A stretch of DNA of 64,000 nucleotides, from contig NW_027467782.1 of assembly GCF_004210375.1 (NCBI RefSeq), positions 33,903,771-33,967,770 of the forward strand. The letters are read 5' to 3'. Below are positions 6,125 to 32,190 of this stretch, piece after piece (within the stretch, counting starts at the first letter, position 1; the number at the start of each line of letters is the position of its first letter). The notes below the pieces were generated by a model. That model ran no database searches. It was not told the origin of the DNA and saw nothing but the letters and a program-made list of their open reading frames with translations. Both the position numbers and the translations under genes were made by a program. Source of the stretch: Tachypleus tridentatus. Lineage: Eukaryota; Arthropoda; Merostomata; Xiphosura; Limulidae.

Positions 6125-7109
6125 CTTAAGGGAGTAAAGAACATTAATTCACACTAAAAGTATGGATAGGTCAAATTAATATTTTAAAAAATTAGTAAAT
6201 TATATTATTAAAATTGTACAAATCCTTTTCATTCACAAGACTGAACAAGACCTACCTAAAAAAAAATAAGACCCTTTAAAAAATGTTGCATTATTTGAAA
6301 CTTGTATTTTTTATCAATAATTTTATTTCTAAAACAACTTGAAAGGTAGTTATACACTTTTCATAAATAAATAAACTTTGGTTCAAAAAACATGCATTAT
6401 AAAATATAAAGTGTAAACACACCATTGTAAAGTAAAAAAAACAAACAAACTTTTTATCTTTATAACACAAATTCATCAATCAATCAACTCTTTTACAAGT
6501 CTGCACACACACAAATTTGCCCAAAACAATGTTTTAGGTAACACTGCATAACAAATCATTTGCTACTAGAGAAAACTCAAGTGATTCTTGGTAGTTAACT
6601 AGTTTTGGTTTCAGATACGTAATCAAAATTTGTCCATCACCTCTAGATTTTAAGATACTGTAGTATCTCACTACTTTATCAACAATATGTGGAATACCAT
6701 ACAATCAGCTCAGTTCAATAGGTTTATACTGTGAAATTAAGTTTACATAGAAAGTTTAATGAACAAAAGGAATAAATTTTTGATAACTTCAAACAGTAAC
6801 TGTATTGTATTGGTGTAAAACTCCATATATATTGTTTATATGTGCTACTTGTTCTTGATAAAATTATAATGACTTGCACCAATTTTGCTTCATTCCCATG
6901 TTCACCTTTTCTGCACAGGAATATTTGAGGAGTCCCTCAACTGAGCTTAAAATGGGCAGAGTGATACACCTCTCTCTCAACTGCTTTTCACTCACTCACT
7001 CAGTTGGTTACTTTGTCTGGCTCTGCCCGCACTCAAAACAAAGTCCATCTTCCTCACATCATACCTGTGATATAATCACTTTCACTTCAAGTAAAGTCCA
7101 AAAAACCAC
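6125..7109. other. No gene seen
   Basis: AT-rich DNA that could be intron of the gene suggested by the candidate exons on either side. The right end (about 6870-7109) is less AT-rich and may be an unrecognisable N-terminal part of the decayed element that follows. Confidence 0.4.
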
Positions 7110-10809: not shown

Positions 10810-11117
10810 ATTAGCCATCCCCAATTTAGAAGTGTAAAACTAGACAGAAGTCAGCTAGCTATCCCTAATTTAACAGTGTAAGACTGGAGGGAAGTCAGCT
10901 AGCTATCCCTAATTTAACAGTGTAAGACTAGATGGAAGTCAGCTAGCTATCCATAATTTAACAGTGTAAGACTGGAGGGAAGTCAGCTAGCTATCCATAA
11001 TTTAACAGTGTAAGACTGGAGGGAAGTCAGCTAGCTATCCCTAATTTAACAGTGTAAGACTAAACGGAAGTCAGCTAGCTATCCATAATTTAACAGTGTA
11101 AGACTGGAGGGAATTAC
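10810..11117. repeat. 44-bp minisatellite made from SINE-A sequence, 7 units
   Basis: Seven head-to-tail units start at 10810, 10854, 10898, 10942, 10986, 11030 and 11074, each exactly 44 bp. Each contains TATCC(C/A)TAATTTAACAGTG followed by TAAGACTGGAGGGAAGTCAG. The unit equals the SINE-A block lying between two near-identical heptamers, GCTAGCC and GCTAGTC, which sit 44 bp apart in intact copies such as the one at 24355-24638. The units differ by only a few substitutions, so expansion followed some divergence of the founding SINE. Confidence 0.93.
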
Positions 11118-14097: not shown

Positions 14098-16965
14098 TCA
14101 AAATAAAGTTCCCAGAATATTATCATCAGTATTTAAGATCCATTGTTTTAAGTATTTCTTTTGATTAACACGATTAATAGAAGATCTTATACTATAAGGA
14201 ATAAAATTATGAATACGAGGTGCCAAATAAAGATATTGATGAAGTGTAACTGTTTTACGTGGTGTGGGTACATTAATTGGAAAAAAAGATTGAAGTCGTG
14301 TAAAATATGAAGTGACTTTAAAAGGCCTATTAAAAAAAACATGCATTGTAGATAAAGCTAAAAAATATAAATAAAGTTTATCATATGAAAGAGGGGAGTT
14401 AAATTTACTGAAATCGGTATCAAGCCTATGGGTAAAAATAAGAGAGAAAACACTTTTTTGCAACTTGTGAATAGGAATTAAAAAAGTCTTATATGTGCCA
14501 CCCCAAATTGAAATACAATATTGTAAGAAAGATTGAAAGAGAGCATAATATACACTTAACAAAATATGATAAGGAGCACAATGACTAAGTTCAAAATTAG
14601 CATAGAACTATATTTTAATTTATTAACTAAAAAATTAATATGAAATTGCCAATTTAATTTTCGATCTAAAATAATTCCTAAATATTTAACAGAGGAAACT
14701 TGAGTCAATTTGGGACACTTACAATTAGGGTAAGTATAACAATCATTGGAATGATAAAAAATAGAAGGAAAAGCTGGAATGACACCATAAAGGTTAAACT
14801 GAAGAAGAAAAGATTTAGATATATTTAAGGAGAAGCCATTACAGAAAAGCCAATTTTTAATTTTATTAAGATCACTAGAAATAATGGCTTCATTAATTAG
14901 ATTTGGCTTACTATAAACAACAGCAATATCATCGGCATAGGCTTGGATATCTCCAGAAAACTGTTGGTAAAGAATATCATTTATATAAATGAGAAATAAT
15001 AAAGGGCCCAGAACAGAACCTTGTGGTACTCCAACATTAATTGTAAGCCAATTACTATAATTATTATGGATACAAACCGATTGCTTTCTATTGTGAAAGT
15101 AAGAAAAAAACCAATCAAAAACAATGCCTCTAAAACCATAATAAGATAATTTATTTAACAAAATTTTATGATTAACAGAATCAAAAGCTTTGGCTAAGTC
15201 AAGAAAAACAGCAATTGGATGAAGATCAGAATCCAAAGCTTCTGTAATACTTCCCACAAGTTTAGCAACAGCAACCTCCGTTCCAAGCCCAGGCCGAAAG
15301 CCAAATTGAGAAGGAGACAAAACTGAATGTCTATCAAGAAATGATAAAATTCTAATCTTCATAGATTTTTCAAATAGTTTAGAGAAATGTATTAATAAGG
15401 AAATAGGTCTATAATTCGTAAAATCAAAAATATTACCAGATTTATAAATAGGAATGACCAATGATAACTTTAAAGCATTAGGAAACTTCCCTTGAGTAAA
15501 AGATAAATTAATTAAAAAAGTCAAAATTGGTGCAAAAAGATTAGCATTAGCTTTCAAAATCTTAACCGAAACACCATCTACACCATTAGAAGCTGAATTT
15601 GATAAGGAGAAAATATTATTCATAGTTTCAGATACAGTAACAGGATATAGGTAACAAGAAGAAGAAGGAGCAGGAGGCATGCCCTGAGAACAAAATTTAG
15701 GATCGGAGCAAGTAGATTTAGCAACATTAACAAAAAAATAATTCAAATCAGATAAATCAGTAGTACCAAAATTACAAAATTTCTTTTTTTTTTTTTAACA
15801 TCAATAATAGAGTTAACAATATTCCAATTCTGTTTAATAGTTTTAGCATTCTTAAACAGGTTATGATAATAAGTCCATTTAGTCTTACGGGTCAAACTAA
15901 CAACATAATTCCTTAAACACTTAAATCTAATCTTTAGATAAATATCATCAGGAAATTGATGTACTTTCTTTTTTAACTTATCTCTTTTAATCATTAACAA
16001 AACCAATTCACTGGTAATCCATGGCTTAATTTTTCTAAACTTTCGTGACACAGAAACAGTAGTAGTACAACTTTGAATACAATCAGTTAACACTTCAGCA
16101 AAATTATCATAAGCAACATTAACATCAGAACAATTCATAACACAAGACCAATCTGAAAAATTCAAACAAGAACTCAAATCATTATACTTAATCTTTTGAA
16201 CATTTGAGACATGTTCTAGATCCGATAAAATGTCTATACCTAAAACAATTGGAAAATGATCGGTCAAAAAACTCTCAACAATATAAGAATAACAATTTTT
16301 AACAGTATTTCCACTAATTAAAAAATGATCAATACAAGAATTAGTAACATTGGTTATCCGTGTAGGAGAAGAAATAATAATACGAAGATTGTTCTCAGAC
16401 AAAAACTTAAAATATGCATTTTTTATAACAAACATCATCAAATGCCAAAACATCTATATTAAAATCACCAACAAGTATATTAATATCATATTTGTATAAA
16501 TTCAATTCTAATGAAAGCTCATCAATAAATTTCAATACAGGCAATCTAGGAGATCGATAAACAACAAAGAGATTAAATTTCTTATTTTGAATCATACAAA
16601 ATAAAATTAAAGCATCAGACTTAATGTACTGTACTTCTCTTATCATAGTCAGTATCTCAAATTTAACAAAAACTGCCACTCCACTAGCCTTATTTAGACC
16701 AGAAGATGAAGAATAAAAGGAGTAACCTGGAATCGAAAAGGAAACAAATCCATCCTCAACAAACCAAGTTTCAGAAAAAGCTATTATATGAAATTTAACA
16801 ACGCTTGATTGTAAAAAAACAAGAAATTGGTCAAAATTTTGAGTAAGACTTCGAATGTTAACATGTATTAAATTTAAATGACCAACAGAAAAAAACATTT
16901 GGTAAATCAGAAAGAGAAGACAAAGTTGGTGTAACACCAACAATATCATCAAAATCATCAGCCAT
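14098..16965 (-). pseudogene. LINE ORF2: APE endonuclease and reverse transcriptase, frameshifted
   Basis: The start is probably the ATG at 16965 (peptide MADDFDDIVGV), 9 bases after the ORF1 stop; a T-run near 16890 shifts the frame. Endonuclease: HLNLIHVNIRSL, FSETWF and LVGDFNIDV at 16407-16958, then TRITNVTNSCIDHFLISG and TDHFPIVL in a second frame (15743-16453). Reverse transcriptase (14556-15746): NYRPISLL, GFRPGLGTEVAV, VFLDLAKAFDSVNHKIL, GVPQGSVLGPLLFLIYIND and catalytic YADD at about 14927-14938. The thumb and C-terminus (YCISIWGGTY) are in a fourth frame at 14098-14562. Frame changes lie near 16890, 16440, 15785 (long A-run on the coding strand) and 14600. The catalytic YADD is intact but the protein cannot be made whole. 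Confidence 0.9.
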
Positions 16966-16973
16966 TGCAGTAT

Positions 16974-17699
16974 TTATAAATTATTAAGATCAATCAAGCA
17001 GCATAAAACAATGGGCTGAGTAGTTTCTGATTTCCTAATAAGAATATTACCATTCGATACCCAAAGAAATTTATAGCCAAGATCTTTCTGTTTTCGTTTT
17101 GCTTGCATGAAAATATCACGATAATATGGGGAGAGATGTTCGTTAACATAAACTGGATAAGATTCATTACAGACCTTAATATCATTTGTATTAAGAGAGC
17201 GAAATTTAGTTTTCTTAAGTTTAAGCAGATCAAATTTAATTTGCTTACGACAAAACTTAACAACAATCTGTCTCGGACTCTTATTTTCAGTTGTTTTCTT
17301 TCCTATACGATGAACAGTGTCAATATCTGTAGGAGCACAGTCAACCCCAAAAGTAGTTGTAATCTTCTCAACAACTTCTTGCAAATTCTCATTAGGCTTC
17401 TCTGGAATACCTCCAATCAAAACATTATAGTTATAAGAATATTGTTCCGCGTCACACATCTTCCTCCGAAAACTTGCCATCTCCTTCCACAATTCTTCAT
17501 TTTCGTGCTTTAATGTTTTATTTTCCTGTTTACACTCCTTAACTTCAGCTCTCAAAGTTGTGATATCCTTACTCATAGTTTCTACCTTCTCTGAATAAAA
17601 TTGAAAGGAAGTCACTAATTCTTCGACCTTTACTTTAATTAAGTGAAAGTCATCAAGTCTTGACAAAATTTCAGTAACTTTTGTCTTAAGCAACTTCAT
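16974..17699 (-). pseudogene. LINE ORF1, coiled-coil and RNA-binding part
   Basis: 241 residues. Residues 1-85 form a heptad-rich coiled coil (LRAEVKECKQENKTLKHENE). Residues 86-170 resemble the L1-ORF1 RRM-like domain (EQYSYNYNVLIGGIPEKP, TVHRIGKK). Residues 185-230 resemble the C-terminal domain shared with baculovirus FP25-like proteins (PVYVNEHLSPYYRDIFMQAK, NGNILIRKSE). ORF1 proteins of this type bind the element's RNA and act as chaperones. This part is in a different frame from the PHD finger upstream; a single extra G in the run at about 17707-17712 explains the break. The apparent ATG at 17699 is therefore probably an internal Met. Confidence 0.85.
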
Positions 17700-21164: not shown

Positions 21165-22480
21165 AATCAAGATAACCTGCCTTGATTGTGGCAGGTTGAT
21201 GTGGTAATATATATATCAGAAAAAGGATGTGTTACACTCATACTGGTGGAGAGTTGTTGAATGCTAATTTGCACATGTGGCATACATGTGTAATTAGATA
21301 GTAATTCACAGCTAGTAGTGAGTGACAATCTGTGCACGAGAAGGAAATCATATGAAAAATAGCTATAACTGTGAAAAAGGGTGGGTAATTGCACTGGAAT
21401 TTCAATGTGTGTTTTTTCAGTAAAACTTTACGTGTTATGTTATTTTCCCCATTCTAACTCTACACCTCATATACCGTGAAAAGAAAATATATTGCCCTTT
21501 TTATTTTCAAGAATGACTTCACGACACATTTGACTATCTTAAATAGCTTTAAGCCCTTAACAATATATGTATATTTATGCTTAAATTTTATTGCTCTTTG
21601 AACTGTGTCTAACTAATGATATCACCACACAAGTTGTGAACCACTTTGTAAACATGTAGCTTATGTTACCTGAAGAAATTATGTAATGCATTGGTTACTA
21701 ATGAGCATATCACAGGAAATCATTTTGTTTTTTTATTTATTTAACCTACTCTAAAACTTATATTTTATTTACCTTTATAATAATAAATAGTACACATGAA
21801 AAACTAGAAATATAGTACTTACCTGGGCCTTTTTTTTATCAACTCTCAATTAAAACTATTATTATAATGGTATTACTGCACTAAATGATTTTTAGTTAAT
21901 CAAAATTGCAACAAAGAATACAAAATAACATGCTAAAAGCACATATTGTCCTAGGACTATCAAAATTTTCTGGCTTTCTTACCATTCAGTAAGACCCAAT
22001 AAAAATTTAGCTAAACTTGCCAATGTGTTTCCTGTGGGAATAAAATTTGCACTGGAAGCAAAATAAACAAACTCCTGTACAGAAAATTATGTAATATAAT
22101 ATTTGGATTTCTGTTGGTTAAAAGTAATATAGTTTTAAATATCAAAGAGAACTAAATATTGGAAACTTGTGAAAGAGAAAACTTAATTATGGGTATGGCT
22201 AAATGGACTTGATTTTCTAGTTTATGGCTCTGTAACCAAATGAGATTGAAGGCTGTAAAAATTATACTTTATCTGAGTAATAACAATATTATAATGAGCG
22301 ACTTATGTTAAATTTTGTACTTCTTGGACAAGTGGTCAATAAATGAGAAAAGAGGAAATACTTAAAATGCAAATATCACAATTCTGAAACAATGGAAAAT
22401 TGAAGACATTTTTAAATGTTGTCCTATAAAACTAGGAAATTAAAACTATATAATTTCCAAATTTGTATTACAAGCTAAGT
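21165..22480. other. No gene seen
   Basis: AT-rich sequence without recognisable coding or repeat content. Confidence 0.4.
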
Positions 22481-23537
22481 TTTGTTGCCAAGTTTACTTA
22501 CCACGATAATAAAAGTAACTTATTAACCATAGTTAATATTAAGCGTCTGCCCAGAAGCGGTGTCTTTGTTCAAGGGCATGACGTAGCTGACCTTAACAGA
22601 TTAGTAAAGGAGGGGCCAGCAGATACCTTAAAACCAGGAAAAATTAAAATTCACCTTCCAGGAAGTGAGCAGCAGCCTAAAGCCATTGTGGTAAGAGGGG
22701 TTCACCAGACCATTAACTTAGAATCAGTCACACAAGCTTTAGATGAACAAGGCATTCCACACAATAAAATAGAACGTATAATCTCAAAGAAAACACAGGC
22801 ACCCACGAATCTCATACGCATTGATATTGACGACAGTTACAACATACAAAAATTAATAAATAATGGAATAACGCTTTGGTATAAAAAATACCAAGTAGAG
22901 CAACTGAAAACTCCGGTTGTTGTAACACAATGTTGCCAAAGATATGGGCATGTCTCAGCAGCCTGCTTAGCAACACCGAGATGCTGCGGATGTGGCGGGA
23001 ACACCATATCAACCAATGCAAAAAAGATAAGGAAACACCTAAATGTTGTAACTGTGGTCAAACCCATACAGCAAATTACAAAGGATGTGATAAATACAAA
23101 CAAATAAAACAACGTATTTATCAGATCAGAACACCAACAGAACAAAACCAACCTAATACAAACAGCTTACCTAAAACAGACATATCAACAGAATTCAATA
23201 AAACAACAAAACCACGTAAATGCTGAAAGTAAAACAACCCCACAAACAGCAAGAGCAGAACATTAAAACCCAGGACAAGAACACTTTAACACAAACACAA
23301 AAACCAGAAGAAAACAGCACCACCATACAAGAAACAAATATTAACACATCAGATAAAACAAGCCTATTCACAACAATAATCAAAAACATAATTACAGAAT
23401 TCATAACAGAATACACTAAACCAAACCAGACAACTAACTGTTTTGAACTACTGATCAATATCTCCAAAAAACACATCACACCCGACATAATATCAACACT
23501 TACTGGATACATGCTCACAGCACAATGTTCACAGTAG
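22463..23537 (+). pseudogene. LINE ORF1, Gag-like with three zinc knuckles, frameshifted
   Basis: Residues 20-160 of the first frame hold an RRM-like nucleic-acid-binding region (KIKIHLPGSEQQPKAIVVRG, LESVTQALDEQGIP, NLIRIDIDD). CCHC knuckles follow: CQRYGHVSAAC (its first Cys pair reads CC), then, after a frame change at about 22990-23010, CGCGG-EHHINQC, then CCNCGQTHTANYKGC. A K/T/N/Q-rich linker follows, interrupted by a stop at 23224, and a C-terminal segment (TNCFELLINISKKHITPDII) ends at 23537 with a short overlap with ORF2. The protein would coat LINE RNA. The methionine at 22463 may be flanking sequence; recognisable similarity begins at about 22530. Confidence 0.8.
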
Positions 23538-24330
23538 TATATATCAACATCCAAGGTGCAATAGCTTCCAAGAAACATGAGATCGAAGACCTAATACAAG
23601 AAACTAACCCCCATATTATAACAGTAAGCGAAACTCTAATATACAATAACAATAGATTTAAAATAGCAAATTATTCAACCATAAGAAAAGACAGAACAAA
23701 TAAAAATGATGAAAACAGAGGCATAATGCTTTTCTACAAAGTGGAGCTTTCAGTAATAGAAATTAAATTTAGCAGCAGCAATGAACATGATACTGTAGAT
23801 ATCCTGCAAAGGAATAAAACTGAAGTAACAGTAGCAGGAATTTACTGCTCACCTAACAAACAAATAGATATAACATTACTTAGCAACATCCTTTCCCACA
23901 ACCAAAACTCCATAGTTATGGAGGACTTAAATAGTAAAAATGTTACCTTTGGATGCCAAAGCTCAAATTCCAATGGTAGAAATCTAATAAAATTCATAGA
24001 CGATAATAATATAGCTTTAGTAAATGATACCACCCCCACACATACAGCGTATGCCACTAACTCCAGTGACATACTAGACCTGTGTATGTGCACATATAAC
24101 CTAAGCCAGAAATTAATAAAATTTCAAGTGGGAAAGGATGTTGACAGTGATCACCTCCCAATATATTGTGTCTTTGATCTCGCCCCCATAAAAATATAAC
24201 ATATAGGAAAGAAAAATTTAATTACAGAAAAGCAGATTGGCAATATTATAAACAGGAATTAGATAACCTGTTACCTAATAAAGTTATAAAAGAAGTTAAA
24301 ACATGTCGAAATGGATAACTACTGTCAAAC
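23525..24330 (+). pseudogene. LINE ORF2, APE endonuclease part
   Basis: Starts at the ATG at 23525, overlapping the ORF1 end by 13 bases in another frame, a usual arrangement for linked LINE ORFs. Motifs of the APE fold in order: VVYINIQGAI, HIITVSETLI (catalytic Glu of SETLI present), VAGIYCSP, the GDxN-type motif altered to VMEDLNSKN (Gly lost), NDTTPTHTA, and the terminal SDHLP motif (VDSDHLPIYCVFD). A stop at about 24197 is followed by further collinear peptide (FNYRKADWQYYKQELDNL) in another frame, up to the SINE insertion at 24355. Confidence 0.85.
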
Positions 24331-24343
24331 AATTACGGAATGC

Positions 24344-24354
24344 CTTCAGAAAGC
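24344..24354. repeat. Target-site duplication, left copy
   Basis: CTTCAGAAAGC, repeated exactly at 24639-24649 on the far side of the SINE. It shows that the SINE inserted into an existing LINE ORF2. Confidence 0.95.
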
Positions 24355-24638
24355 TTTGTTTGTTTGTTTGTTTGGAAATTTCGCACAAAGCTACTCGAGG
24401 GCTATCTGTGCTAGCCGTCCCTAATTTTGCAGTGTAAGACTAGAGGGAAGGCAGCTAGTCATCACCACCCACCGCCAACTCTTGGGCTACTCTTTTACCA
24501 ACGAATAGTGGGATTGACCGTAACATTATACACCCCCCACGGCTGGGAGGGCGAGCATGTTTAGCGCGACGCGGGCGCGAACCCGCGACCCTCGGATTAC
24601 GAGTCGCACGCCTTACGCGCTAGGCCATGCCGGGCCGT
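24355..24638 (-). mobile_element. Full-length SINE-A inside the LINE ORF2
   Basis: 284 bp, minus-oriented. The (GTTT)n tail complement is at the left. The tRNA-like head is at the right, beginning on the minus strand with GGCCCGGCATGGCC and containing a B-box-like GGGTTCGCGCCC. The copy keeps many CpG sites (CGCGACGCGGGCGCG on the plus strand) and is almost identical to the copy at 33284-33562. It is therefore young compared with those at 1-197 and 55758-56000. It is flanked by the perfect 11-bp duplication CTTCAGAAAGC. The A- and B-box-like motifs predict RNA polymerase III transcription. Confidence 0.96.
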
Positions 24639-24649
24639 CTTCAGAAAGC

Positions 24650-26607
24650 AGCCAAGTTAACAATACCAAAACAACACCATAAAACAACAAACAACACATG
24701 TAAACCCACCACAGAAATGATCAATATAATCAAAAAACGAAGACAATTAAGAAGCCAGTACATGATTACAAGAAACAGAGAAACCAAAACGCAAATAAAC
24801 AACATTAGAAATCACATCAGAACACAAATAAAACAACAAAAACAAAATAAATGGGACAATTACTGCAATAAACTAAATGATAAGACTGACTCGAAAAAAT
24901 TCTGGTCACATCTTAAAAGACTCACAAATGAAAACACAAACACAAAGAAATATCCTCCACTCGAACATAATAACACTATAGCACACACAAATAAAGAAAC
25001 AGCCGAAGCTTTCAAAGATCAACTCCAAAATATATTTGAAACTCACACTGATCCAGATATGAATACATATTTCTACAATAGTCACTAATCACATAGTAAA
25101 CAATAAACATCAATTTGAGCCAATTTTTCCAGTAAACATAACTGATACAAATACAAGTTCCGATACAGATTATGCAAGCACATTAATAACAAATGAAATA
25201 TCCCTTCAAGAATTACTAGAAGCAATAAAAAACACAAAAAACAAAGCACCAGATGAAGACGAAATACAAGCTATCCTCCTAAAAAAAGGGCACTCCGAAA
25301 TTGTTTGACCACTTAAATTCACTTTTTAACTTATCACTATCCTCAGGATACATCCAAGTTTCTTGGAAGCTTGCAAATATATTAATGTTCTATAAGGAAG
25401 GAAAGCCAGCGAATAAACCTAATAGCTACCGACCAATCAGCCTGACCAGCTGTGTAGGCAAAATTCTTGAAAGAATAATCAGTACTAGACTCTCCACATT
25501 CTTGGAGATAACATCAAAATTACCAAAAGAACAAAATGGATTCAGGAAACTTAGACAAACGACAGACCACCTAATCAGATTAACCGAAACCATAATAGAT
25601 AGTTTCAACAAAAAAGAATGTACTGTCGCTTGCTTCCTTGATATCGAGAAAGCATTTGACACTGTTTGGCACGATGGTCTAAGGTTCCGAATGAATGAAA
25701 TGGAACTACCGCGAGGAATTATTCGCTGGTTATCTAACTTTTTGAAAAATAGAAAATGTAGAGTAAATGTTGAAGGAACTTTTTCTGAATATTTTACTCC
25801 ACAAGCTGGTGTCCCTCAGGGAGGGTGGTTAGCCCTATACTTTTCATCATGTATGTAAACAATATTCCACTGAGGGATCCAAATCATGGATTCTCTTCAC
25901 AGTTCGCAGATGATATGGCAGTCTGGAAAAGTGCCGAAACACCCACGATAGCAGCCACGAACATACAACCACAACTAAATAGAATAAGTGAATACTGTCA
26001 AAAATATAGAATAAAAATAAACACAGCAAAAACACAACTCGTAGTCTTTACGAAATCCACAAAACACAAAAACAACAGCCAGAACTATATATGAATGGCA
26101 CTCTACTCCAGATTGCCCCATTGGCAAAATTTTTAGGTCTGACCTATGATTCAAAACTAACTTGGATCAATCATGTGGACGAAATTAAAAATAAAGTCTG
26201 GCGAAGAACTAACTATGCTAGAGTCTGACTGGTAAAAACAGTGAAGCATCTACAGATAACATACTAAAAATCTATAAAACATATATTAGACCTGTAATAG
26301 ACTATGCAGCTCCAGCATGGATAACTGTAAGCAATAAAATAATTAAAACTAAACTACAAACAATCCAAAACACACTCCTCACAACTGCACACAGAGTTCC
26401 AAGAACAATATCATCTCAATTCATTCACAAATACTCGAACATACCAACCATACCAGATAGACTCCCACATATTACAATTATGTACTTTAATAAGAATTGG
26501 ATGAAAAACGAATTACTATGCGAACTAGACCGGTACCTCATACATGATGAAGCTAGTCCTAAACATCTCTCCCCAGTTAACTTATATTTCAAATATAAAA
26601 ATAAATA
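24650..26607 (+). pseudogene. LINE ORF2, reverse transcriptase part after the SINE
   Basis: The linker 24650-25088 continues exactly where the target site breaks the frame (QKAAKL). Reverse transcriptase: SYRPISLTSCVGKILERII, EQNGFRKLRQTTDHLIRL and VACFLDIEKAFDTVWHDGL in 25301-25858; then GVPQGG, with a frame change caused by one missing G in the G-run at about 25820-25830; then VSPILFIMYVNNIP and catalytic FADD (25903-25914) in 25825-26094. The C-terminal part (LTWINHVDEIKNKVWRR, YIRPVIDYAAPAW, RVPRTISSQFIHKYSN) continues in other frames to a stop at about 26607. No RNase H domain follows. Confidence 0.88.
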
Positions 26608-27180: not shown

Positions 27181-27481
27181 AAGTACGGGGAGGAGGAAGA
27201 GGTCATACAGAACCTGACCCTCCAGGGTATGAACTTTTACTACCCAAACACCGACGACTGCTTACATTAAGCAGACTTTTATCACTTGTTTTGATTCACC
27301 CTAAGAATATCAGTGACCTAACTATTGAAAAACACACTAAAATTATGAAAACTCATTTAATATTAAAGATAGTTATGTACAGTATAATAATTCATGCTTT
27401 TAGTTAATATGTACACAATACTTGTACCACACACTTGTTACATAAGTTGTTTTAATTTTTAAAGTTATAAAAACAGATAAA

Positions 27482-27839
27482 ATGTACCAGCATGCATTTT
27501 TAAAATGTATAAAAATAACATTCAATAAAATTACAGTAATATAATAGCTTATGCTCTTTGTTTTGAATGAGTTTTAGCTACATAAATAATGTCATTGTAC
27601 TTATAAAGCCAATTATTGTTGGTTAGTCACAATTATCTACCTGATTTATGTCTCTGCTAAATGTACCAGCATGCATTTTTAAAATGTATAAAAATAACAT
27701 TCAATAAAATTACAGTAATATAATAGCTTATGCTCTTTGTTTTGAATGAGTTTTAGCTACATAAATAATGTCATTGTACTTATAAAGCCAATTATTGTTG
27801 GTTAGTCACAATTATCTACCTGATTTATGTCTCTGCTAA
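27482..27839. repeat. Perfect 179-bp tandem duplication
   Basis: Units 27482-27660 and 27661-27839, each starting ATGTACCAGCATGC and ending CTCTGCTAA. I found no difference between the two when reading them side by side. Both are AT-rich with no coding content. Confidence 0.93.
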
Positions 27840-28599
27840 GTGTTATAACTGCAGAACTCATATGGAATAAAACTGTATTTCTTTCCAACCACTCCGAAAG
27901 AAAATATTTAACTCTCACTGATAAAGAATAAATATTTATAATTACAAGTTATACATTAGTACAATTTTAGTGCCAGACCTTAAAAAAATAATGAAAAATA
28001 AATATTTAGAACTTTAAATGGGTGAAATTGTAAACCTGATGTTCCACACTTTAGAAATTCTTTTATATATGACTAATGCTAAAAAAATCCTCACTTATGT
28101 CAGGGAAATGTATCTCTAAAAGTAGAAAGCAAAGAGGTTCCATCTTTAAACACATTTAAGACTACATGTCAAGAGCAATATTAATATGGTAGAATACATC
28201 ATGATGTATTTCAGTTTCTATATAATACATAAGGTATAAAAACCATAATAATTCTGGAAAGTATTTTAACTTTTTCTTGAATAACTCAGTTTGAAAGATT
28301 CAACTTATGTTATTTGCTATTTCTAAAAAATAGCATCTTAAAATCCTTTATCACCAACTTAGACAGCCAGATCATTGATGTATCCAAAGATAATCTGTAT
28401 TAATAACATTTTATGTAGTAATTCTTAAAAGTCTTCAGTTAACTATAAAATCCTATGTTTTTTAGTACTATTAAACCTCACATTGACATATTCTCCTGCT
28501 CATTTTACACCACTTTAAAACAAGCAAAAGCAATAATGGAAAAAAAAAAAATCAAAATTTTTGTATTTATATGTTTACAAAAACATGCCATATCAACAT
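27840..28599. other. No gene seen
   Basis: AT-rich DNA. No recognisable repeat or coding signal. Confidence 0.4.
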
Positions 28600-28790
28600 G
28601 TAGGGAGAGGTTAAGTGATTAATAATATATCACGTATTTCGTGATGACGAGAAACCAACTTGAAGTAAAAATGTATTTCAGGACAACTGTTGCAAACTCC
28701 TTCTTTGTTAATCTGGAGATGACCTAAGAAGGTCAAAACATTGTTCTCAATTTTGTTTTGGTATCACCAGTTGTCCTAAGATACATATCA
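28600..28790 (+). mobile_element. Probable Penelope-like terminal remnant with hammerhead-like core
   Basis: The segment contains CTGGAGA-T-GACC-TAAGAA-GGTC-AAAAC (28713-28739), close to the hammerhead ribozyme pattern CUGANGA, stem II, GAAA, with two core differences and one extra base. It is enclosed by an inverted repeat (AGGACAACTG at 28680-28689, CAGTTGTCCT at 28768-28777) that extends outward with two mismatches to GTAT/ATAC. From memory, arthropod Penelope-like elements carry the sequence GACC-GAAGAA-GGTC-GAAACGTT, and such elements are known to encode hammerheads in their terminal repeats. The copy is decayed. Confidence 0.5.
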
Positions 28791-29310
28791 CATACTTGTT
28801 ATGTTACTGGAAAGTGATACAACAATGGGAATATACAAATTTCAGAATTTCCTGCTCACACTCTCTATTGAATTACATAGAAATAACTTATGAGAAAGCT
28901 AGTCTAATCTAGCATTTGTATTAGGTAAAATTAAAATAATAAACCTTTACACTCCATACAAAAATTACACTGCACAACAATTTTTTTAAATTTTTTGCTT
29001 CCTGAAAAGGTTTTGCTGATTGTGGCAGGTATCTGGGTGGGTATGCACAAATATAGTTTTGGTTTTGCTTCATCAGTAGAAACTTTGAGAAATAGTCAGT
29101 TAGCTGTTTACTGGCAATAACTTATTTAATTGTGTTTATGTTTGTAATACACTATTAAGTTCAACATAATTAAAAGTGTTTTGCTCCTGATTTTGTTTGT
29201 ATTCAATGTCCAGTGCATCACGTTCCAGTGTTCAAGAGTAGTCAGCAAGCATTGACAAATTCCAGTTGCCCTGATATTGTTTTCCCATTGTAGCAAAACT
29301 GAAGATTTCA

Positions 29311-31179: not shown

Positions 31180-32190
31180 GTACAAAGGCCATGACCTTCA
31201 CATCAGTGGGATAATTCTCATCTAGCTATTTCAAAAGTTTGTTCTTCAATCTATCTTTCATTTCTTTAAACATCATTGACTAGAATATCAGTGCAAGTAT
31301 AACTTTTTCTGGCAAAACTTGTTGCACATTATTGGCATATGAGAATAGTTTTGTATCATCAGATTTAATTGTATTTCCAGTCATGTTCATAAGATCATCT
31401 GGATCTCCTGGAAGTAATGTAGTACTAAAAATCCTTAATCCTGCCATGCAGAATGCAAGCAATCAACTGTTCTTTTCAAGAGCACTGAAACTTGATGCTT
31501 TTCATCGAGCTTCTTGATTTGGAAAGTTTAATGTTGTTGTGCATTCAATACCAAATTGAATCGGCATTGCTCCTGTGCCATGTTGAAATACCACAACGTC
31601 TTGCTTTTACACTTCAATTTTTGGATTATCTGCATCATTCATTCAGTGTCACAAACTCCATGGGATCCTCAGAAGTTCTTTATATGCAAAAACGGCTCGT
31701 TTGGGTTGAGAAAATATTTTACATAGAAGAGCGAACAACGTTGTTCGCTCTTCTATGTAAAATATTTTCTCAACCCAAACGAGCCGTTTTTGCATATAAA
31801 TTTCTCAACAAGTGGGTTTCTCGACCTCAGAAGTTCTGCTAGACATTTTGTCTTCATCACTCTCCAGTGGAATAGATGAATCAGTCCTTTATTTTCTCTT
31901 TCTTCATACTTTTAAATTACCTTGCAGTTCTTTCACACCTGTTTTTTATGCAATTTTGACCTCTAAGTCTGAACCATTACATCTACACTGTCACTTTGAA
32001 CTTACAAGTCACTTTCTTCTTTTCCTGTATCAATGTTACTTTATCAATACAGGATCAGCACACTTAATCACTGAATGTTGTAGCATGTTGACATCTGTTT
32101 TGTGGCCAGCTGTAGATCAAATTTTCACAAAGTGTGCAACAGTTATCTGTATTTTGGCCAATCAGGTTTTGGTAAAGGTATCAACCAATT
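31180..32190 (-). pseudogene. Broken coding sequence of an unidentified protein
   Basis: On the minus strand a protein-like sequence runs across several frames. From right to left it includes FQHGTGAMPIQFGIECTTTL at about 31560, then AGLRIFSTTLLPGDPDDLMN and SYANNVQQVLPEKVILALIF at 31280-31462, then MMFKEMKDRLKNKLL and VMAFVPTLKT near 31180-31280. The pieces are collinear, with a few stops and frame changes, so this is a decayed copy of something about 250 residues or longer. I do not recognise the family. It is interrupted by the palindromic insertion at 31680-31824. A processed pseudogene and a transposon or viral relic are both possible. Confidence 0.4.
31680..31824. mobile_element. 145-bp palindromic insertion, probable Penelope-like terminal junction
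   Basis: An insertion flanked by a perfect 13-bp target-site duplication (CCTCAGAAGTTCT at 31667-31679 and 31825-31837). Its bulk is a spacerless perfect palindrome with 61-bp arms (31679-31739 and 31740-31800, counting the base shared with the duplication), followed by a single-copy 24-bp extension. The centre reads GAACAAC-GTTGTTC. From memory, the arm sequence (GTTGTTCGCTCTTCT, then CAACCCAAACGAGCC) is what follows the GAAAC hammerhead-type core in Penelope-like repeats, so the palindrome looks like two element termini joined head to head. The palindrome and the duplication are direct observations; the family is inference. Confidence 0.75.

Follow-up and report, generated by a model that had tools for sequence, protein, structure and literature searches.

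A 145-bp insertion in the 64,000-nucleotide stretch of Tachypleus tridentatus DNA analysed here (the window) consists of a perfect palindrome and a short one-sided tail between the two copies of a target-site duplication. Judged from its sequence and from those of its relatives in the genome, it is, with a probability of roughly three in four, a minimal insertion of a Penelope-like element (PLE) produced by two-ended target-primed reverse transcription. Such short copies bear on the way PLE insertion works and on the origin of the inverted ends and optional tail of PLE copies, as a single short copy displays the two outer starts together with the joint and the duplication within one read. They also suggest a rule that can be tested: each target strand has one start site, and two cDNAs meet in one joint.

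Structure of the insertion in the window

The palindrome extends from 31679 to 31800, with two arms of 61 nt each that are 100% complementary and separated by a spacer of 0 nt. The second-longest perfect palindrome in the window measures 18 bp; in 20 first-order Markov windows of equal length, the maxima ranged from 14 to 22 bp. The insertion itself (31680–31824, 145 bp) is bounded by a 13-bp direct repeat, CCTCAGAAGTTCT, whose left copy lies at 31667–31679 and right copy at 31825–31837, both on the forward strand, with a duplication score of 13 (the window copy is L001). Base 31679 is common to the repeat and the palindrome, and the insertion boundary is therefore uncertain by about one base. 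Palindrome, arm length, lack of a spacer, insertion size and duplication had all been described in an earlier note on this DNA, and recomputation confirmed each of them.

The insertion is asymmetric, with 24 nt (31801–31824) beyond the palindrome on the right side only. Using the body of a long copy, L032 (2199 nt), as the reference for piece coordinates, the left arm (31679–31739, reverse strand) is an inverted piece of a PLE 3′ end that starts at what we call site 2 (TTTATATGC...), lacks the tail and is 100% identical to reference 2166–2102 inverted. The right arm (31740–31800, forward strand) is a direct piece of the same 3′ end, and it is followed on the forward strand by the first 24 of the 33 nt of the tail (31801–31824). 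In most other copies the tail extends to ...ATCACTGA, and the window copy ends after 24 nt. The center of the palindrome, AACGTT at 31737–31742, is self-complementary.

Other repeats are present in the window. Broken frames of non-LTR retrotransposons lie at 14098–17699 (reverse strand; reverse transcriptase, endonuclease and Baculo_FP_2nd matches) and at 22463–25858 (forward strand; reverse transcriptase, endonuclease and a weak PRE_C2HC match). A 179-bp unit is repeated in tandem at 27480–27843 (2.0 copies), and the 99% matches between its copies suggest that the duplication is probably recent. An array of a 44-bp unit (10812–11113, 6.9 copies) is similar, by eye, to a dispersed repeat flanking L018, L033 and L047.

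Identity of the palindrome arms

The earlier note had proposed a search for full Penelope-like elements with the same ends, and a longer copy was found. L032 (2.26 kb) has both ends as in the window insertion, with a reverse transcriptase encoded between them (RVT_1, E 4.8e-10) that is of the PLE type by context rather than by phylogeny. Downstream of the reverse transcriptase, the stretch IYKIQCDNCHDFYIGETSR resembles by eye what we take to be the GIY-YIG endonuclease motif; searches of Pfam, NCBIfam, PDB sequences and a protein database gave no named match for this stretch.

In the long copies, GTGAACCTGACGATGACCGAAGAAGGTCGAAACGTTGTTCGC or a near variant stands before the arm; this is a minimal hammerhead-like core that reads by eye as CTGACGA ... 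GAAAC GTT. The AACGTT of the palindrome center lies inside this core in the long copies, immediately 5′ of the predicted cut. The minimum-energy fold of the region contains stems I and II, with core bases paired as well, and the Rfam hammerhead models gave no match in the window at the gathering threshold or in seven loci at E values up to 1. The earlier note's placement of the palindrome center at the point where a hammerhead-type core meets the downstream sequence fits both the longer copies and the printed template of PAc, the Poseidon PLE of Anolis carolinensis. Because the same ends occur on a longer copy encoding reverse transcriptase, and because the hammerhead-like core stands beside the arm, the palindrome arms are the 3′ end of a PLE. 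The PLE features found here are a reverse transcriptase in a long copy, a 33-nt tail on right ends only, within the 30–40 bp range of PLE tails that span the interval between two starts, and an inverted 5′ piece within the duplication.

Copies across the genome

The source genome of the window (2.17 Gb, 205 contigs) was searched for further copies. The earlier note's reading of the arm as part of a mobile element implied that the arm is multicopy, and this proved to be so: a search with the 122-bp palindrome yielded 104 candidates, of which 40 were scored places, and the exact 18-bp center occurs at 18 places compared to 0 for its reversed control. A query of the right arm with its right flank found the window and four more places. 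The sample comprised 50 places, namely all 40, 6 of the 18 center matches that were not already included, and the 4. Five of these (L012, L022, L050, L036 and L049) repeat the flanks of another copy, leaving 45 unique insertions.

These insertions were grouped by eye. Palindromes with both arms account for 19 of the 45, while hammerhead sequence separates the arms in three (L014, L016 and L017) and part of one arm is absent in six (L018, L028, L029, L030, L038 and L039). Nine have unequal pieces (L031, L032, L034, L037, L040, L042, L043, L045 and L046), and one (L009) has an additional direct copy of the element end. The remaining seven are irregular: in L035 and L047 the start of the left piece lies within the arm, L033 has no left piece, and in L025, L026, L027 and L051 the ends are diverged or not recognized. 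Since the sample was picked by likeness to the palindrome, these counts give no frequency of palindromes among PLE insertions. In L009 (1201–1532), hammerhead, arm and tail come directly after a tail-less palindrome, as though reverse transcription had begun anew at site 2 on another template.

A common plan of two pieces

Most of the dissected copies are built alike: the left piece is inverted, with a fixed start and no tail, the right piece is direct and closes with the 33-nt tail, and the variable inner ends meet in a head-to-head joint, all within a target duplication of mostly 12–15 bp. These copies bear out the earlier note's suggestion that two copies of the element end were joined head to head inside a target duplication. 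An inverted left piece with its outer end at reference 2155–2174 is present in 40 of 45 tabulated rows (three duplicates and the window copy are counted among the 40), and the five rows lacking one are L033, L035, L036, L043 and L047. None of the 40 left pieces runs through the whole 33-nt tail (2167–2199); in L002, L003, L007, L015, L023 and two duplicates the alignment enters the tail by a few bases that are also letters of the target duplication. The left match was wrong in 2 of the 40 rows (L037 and L020), both of which were re-read, L020 from its own arm. Left pieces generally start near reference 2162–2169, and the right pieces are direct and end near reference 2190–2199, past the 33-nt tail. 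L026, L027, L049, L051 and L052 lie outside the 45-row table, and L052 fits the plan by eye.

A duplication score of at least 8 was obtained for 30 of 36 tabulated insertions compared to 6 of 1440 (0.4%) mismatched flank pairs; this table omits L043, L052 and the seven irregular copies. By score, no clear duplication was seen in the other six (L008, L021, L024, L045, L046 and L048). The left end of L043 lies beyond the locus first retrieved, and when sought at the place predicted by the rule it was found to start at site 2 with a 14-bp duplication.

Inner ends and the joint

The lengths of the left and right pieces are independent across copies. The left and right pieces measure 819 and 485 nt in L031, 884 and 33 nt (the tail only) in L040, 63 and 2199 nt in L032, and about 1.83 and 1.12 kb in L043. 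In the palindromes both pieces stop at AACGTT, while in L014, L016 and L017 only one of them does so and the other continues into the hammerhead. Five such one-sided copies (L014, L016, L017, L033 and L034) have an inner end at AACGTT, and TC precedes AACGTT in all five, which in four of them also fits a joint of 2–4 shared bases. According to the hammerhead numbering that we assume, the predicted cut is six bases from this stop point, and by itself it does not explain the stop at AACGTT. The six copies with part of one arm absent retain GTTGTTC or GTTGTTCG to either side of the center and have lost the adjoining part of one arm beyond these bases; by eye, their inner breakpoints lie at about reference 2112–2114, 7–9 nt from the center.

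Older, independent insertions

The window and all fetched loci (306 kb) were scanned with tail and hammerhead pieces, and older insertions were read by eye. The full plan was recognized in three of them: one in the window and the second elements of L046 and L034. The insertion in the window (28640–28786, reverse strand) belongs to a related subfamily with the hammerhead-like core CTGGAGATGACCTAAGAAGGTCAAAAC; its tail is inverted and on one side only, an inverted piece with the core lies opposite, and an imperfect duplication (28627–28639 and 28785–28797) is alike at 11 of 13 positions. The second element of L046 retains about 11 nt of the left end. In that of L034 (near 2883–2930), about 7 nt of the left end are joined to the tail within a duplication of about 14 bp; by eye, this insertion is even smaller than 145 bp. 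Older insertions in L038 (near 6581–6770) and L018 (near 840–984) have an inverted left piece and a one-sided tail, with the left start inside the arm. Scan matches in L033 and L040 gave no clear plan.

Proposed mechanism of insertion

Under two-ended target-primed reverse transcription, the element endonuclease would make a staggered cut with 3′ overhangs of about 12–15 nt, as the duplications suggest; overhangs of this kind would be required for a duplication when a cDNA grows from each target 3′ end. Each overhang would then prime reverse transcription on the element RNA, apparently with one start per target strand. Priming at site 2 would give the left piece without the tail, and priming at site 1, 33 nt further 3′, the tailed right piece; both fixed outer ends can be seen in the copies themselves. 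The two cDNAs would extend separately toward the 5′ side of the RNA and stop at different places, and the unequal lengths of left and right pieces argue that they grow independently. Their 3′ ends would finally be joined head to head, as the joint in the copies indicates, and filled in. When both stops fall at or just past the hammerhead-like core, the AACGTT ends could pair, and fill-in would yield a perfect spacerless palindrome. The window copy would represent this case, with both cDNAs ending at AACGTT. Activities of the kind needed are on record in vitro: a purified PLE protein cleaves and extends both target strands and starts at two adjacent internal sites, the interval between which is the "tail" (PMC11167929, which describes later steps of PLE insertion as yet to be validated).

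The earlier note, largely right on the other points, had regarded the insertion as a minimal mobile unit made only of ends. This part of its proposal is not borne out by the copies. The two-piece plan is found with left pieces of up to about 1.8 kb (L043) and right pieces of up to 2.2 kb (L032), so that ordinary PLE insertion, of which the palindrome would be the shortest product, is the better reading. A broader proposal, which we put forward tentatively and at somewhat less than even odds, is that insertions of such PLEs are in general pairs of independently primed cDNAs with a fixed, different start on each strand, that the self-complementary stem III (AACGTT here, ACGU in PAc) serves as a built-in joint, and that perfect palindromes are the natural shortest product.

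Several observations count against the mechanism. Seven of the 45 unique insertions are irregular, 6 of 36 are without a clear duplication, and the older insertions in L018 and L038 start inside the arm. Furthermore, in the assay of the purified PLE protein no difference in start site was observed between the top and bottom strands (PMC11167929). The assay thus leaves the strict division of starts by side unexplained; target geometry or later steps may account for it.

Alternative explanations

One cDNA or antisense RNA could instead fold at a palindromic end and copy the second arm from itself. For palindromes at the head-to-head junctions of rotifer PLEs, self-priming on an antisense template was the preferred account in the available part of PMC3846280; the AACGTT center is self-complementary, and the left pieces of L047 and L035, which comprise just a short internal stretch of the arm, would fit a snap-back of limited extent. 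An arm copied from itself should extend to the template end, so that both pieces or neither would carry the tail, but none of the 40 left pieces runs through it, and in several copies the inner ends are hundreds of bases apart and would need very large loops. We consider this snap-back course unlikely. About as unlikely, in our judgment, is that the palindrome moves as a unit of its own, with a palindromic RNA retrotransposed by the PLE protein like a SINE or a retrozyme. Its RNA is predicted to fold as a near-perfect hairpin, and a subgroup with GTGTTTTCTCAGCCC in place of ATATTTTCTCAACCC comprises six palindromes (L006, L007, L010, L013, L019 and L023) and the irregular L047 and none of the nine unequal copies; in the first four of these palindromes, the two arms differ at only 0–1 positions. 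However, palindromes and long coding copies share site 2 as the stop of their left end, making a special palindromic source unneeded. Arm divergence is 5.6% within copies compared to 13.3% between copies (19 copies; 0 of 10,000 permutations). This difference is compatible with a single subfamily or a single RNA for each event, but would be expected of a copied palindrome too and is thus not decisive.

Perfect palindromes are prone to artefacts, and an assembly or sequencing error at the center might be suspected. The dispersed copies are many, each with its own target duplication, and the arms differ by up to 17% in some of them (L048), neither of which an artefact would produce, so that such an error is very improbable. 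We give the least credence of all to a DNA transposon of the fold-back or MITE type, with long terminal inverted repeats and no relation to PLEs. Inverted repeats, small size, dispersal and target duplications would suit such an element, but its terminal repeats should be symmetric at the very ends, whereas the tail here is on one side only; moreover, a reverse transcriptase is encoded by longer copies sharing these ends, and the center matches the hammerhead-like core of longer copies.

Comparison with known systems

Among the titles and abstracts found, which covered few subscription papers, none dealt with palindromic minimal PLE insertions or with one start site per strand. The copies described here share several features with known elements. 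Like the animal retrozymes (PMC7229834, available part), which have a type I hammerhead, they are short, non-autonomous and dispersed, with target duplications; unlike in those elements, the palindrome here is without a hammerhead core. In Adineta vaga, Penelope copies such as Pen2a_Av carry a head-to-head, inverted pLTR on the 5′ side, and one of the inverted pLTRs has a 31-bp tail, comparable to the 33-nt tail here; the inverted pLTR is 37 bp shorter and the target duplications are short, 8–10 bp. These copies are full or long, whereas the window insertion has 145 bp and no coding sequence (Adineta vaga data from the available part of PMC3846280).

The closest comparison is with PAc (PMC11167929, as far as available to us). 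The order of its hammerhead motifs before the end region (CUGANGA, AUG at stem II, GAAACGUH) is the same as here, and its two reverse transcription starts are likewise about a tail length apart. Here, the correspondingly placed ATG lies 115 nt from site 1 (2085 to 2199), and the PAc starts are reported at 111–118 into the ORF. The PAc protein cuts and extends both target strands in vitro. The available part of that report does not describe palindromic insertions. PAc starts did not differ between the strands, while here they are divided by side. Compared to the in vitro work, the new element suggested by these sequences would thus be the division of two starts between the two sides of one insertion.
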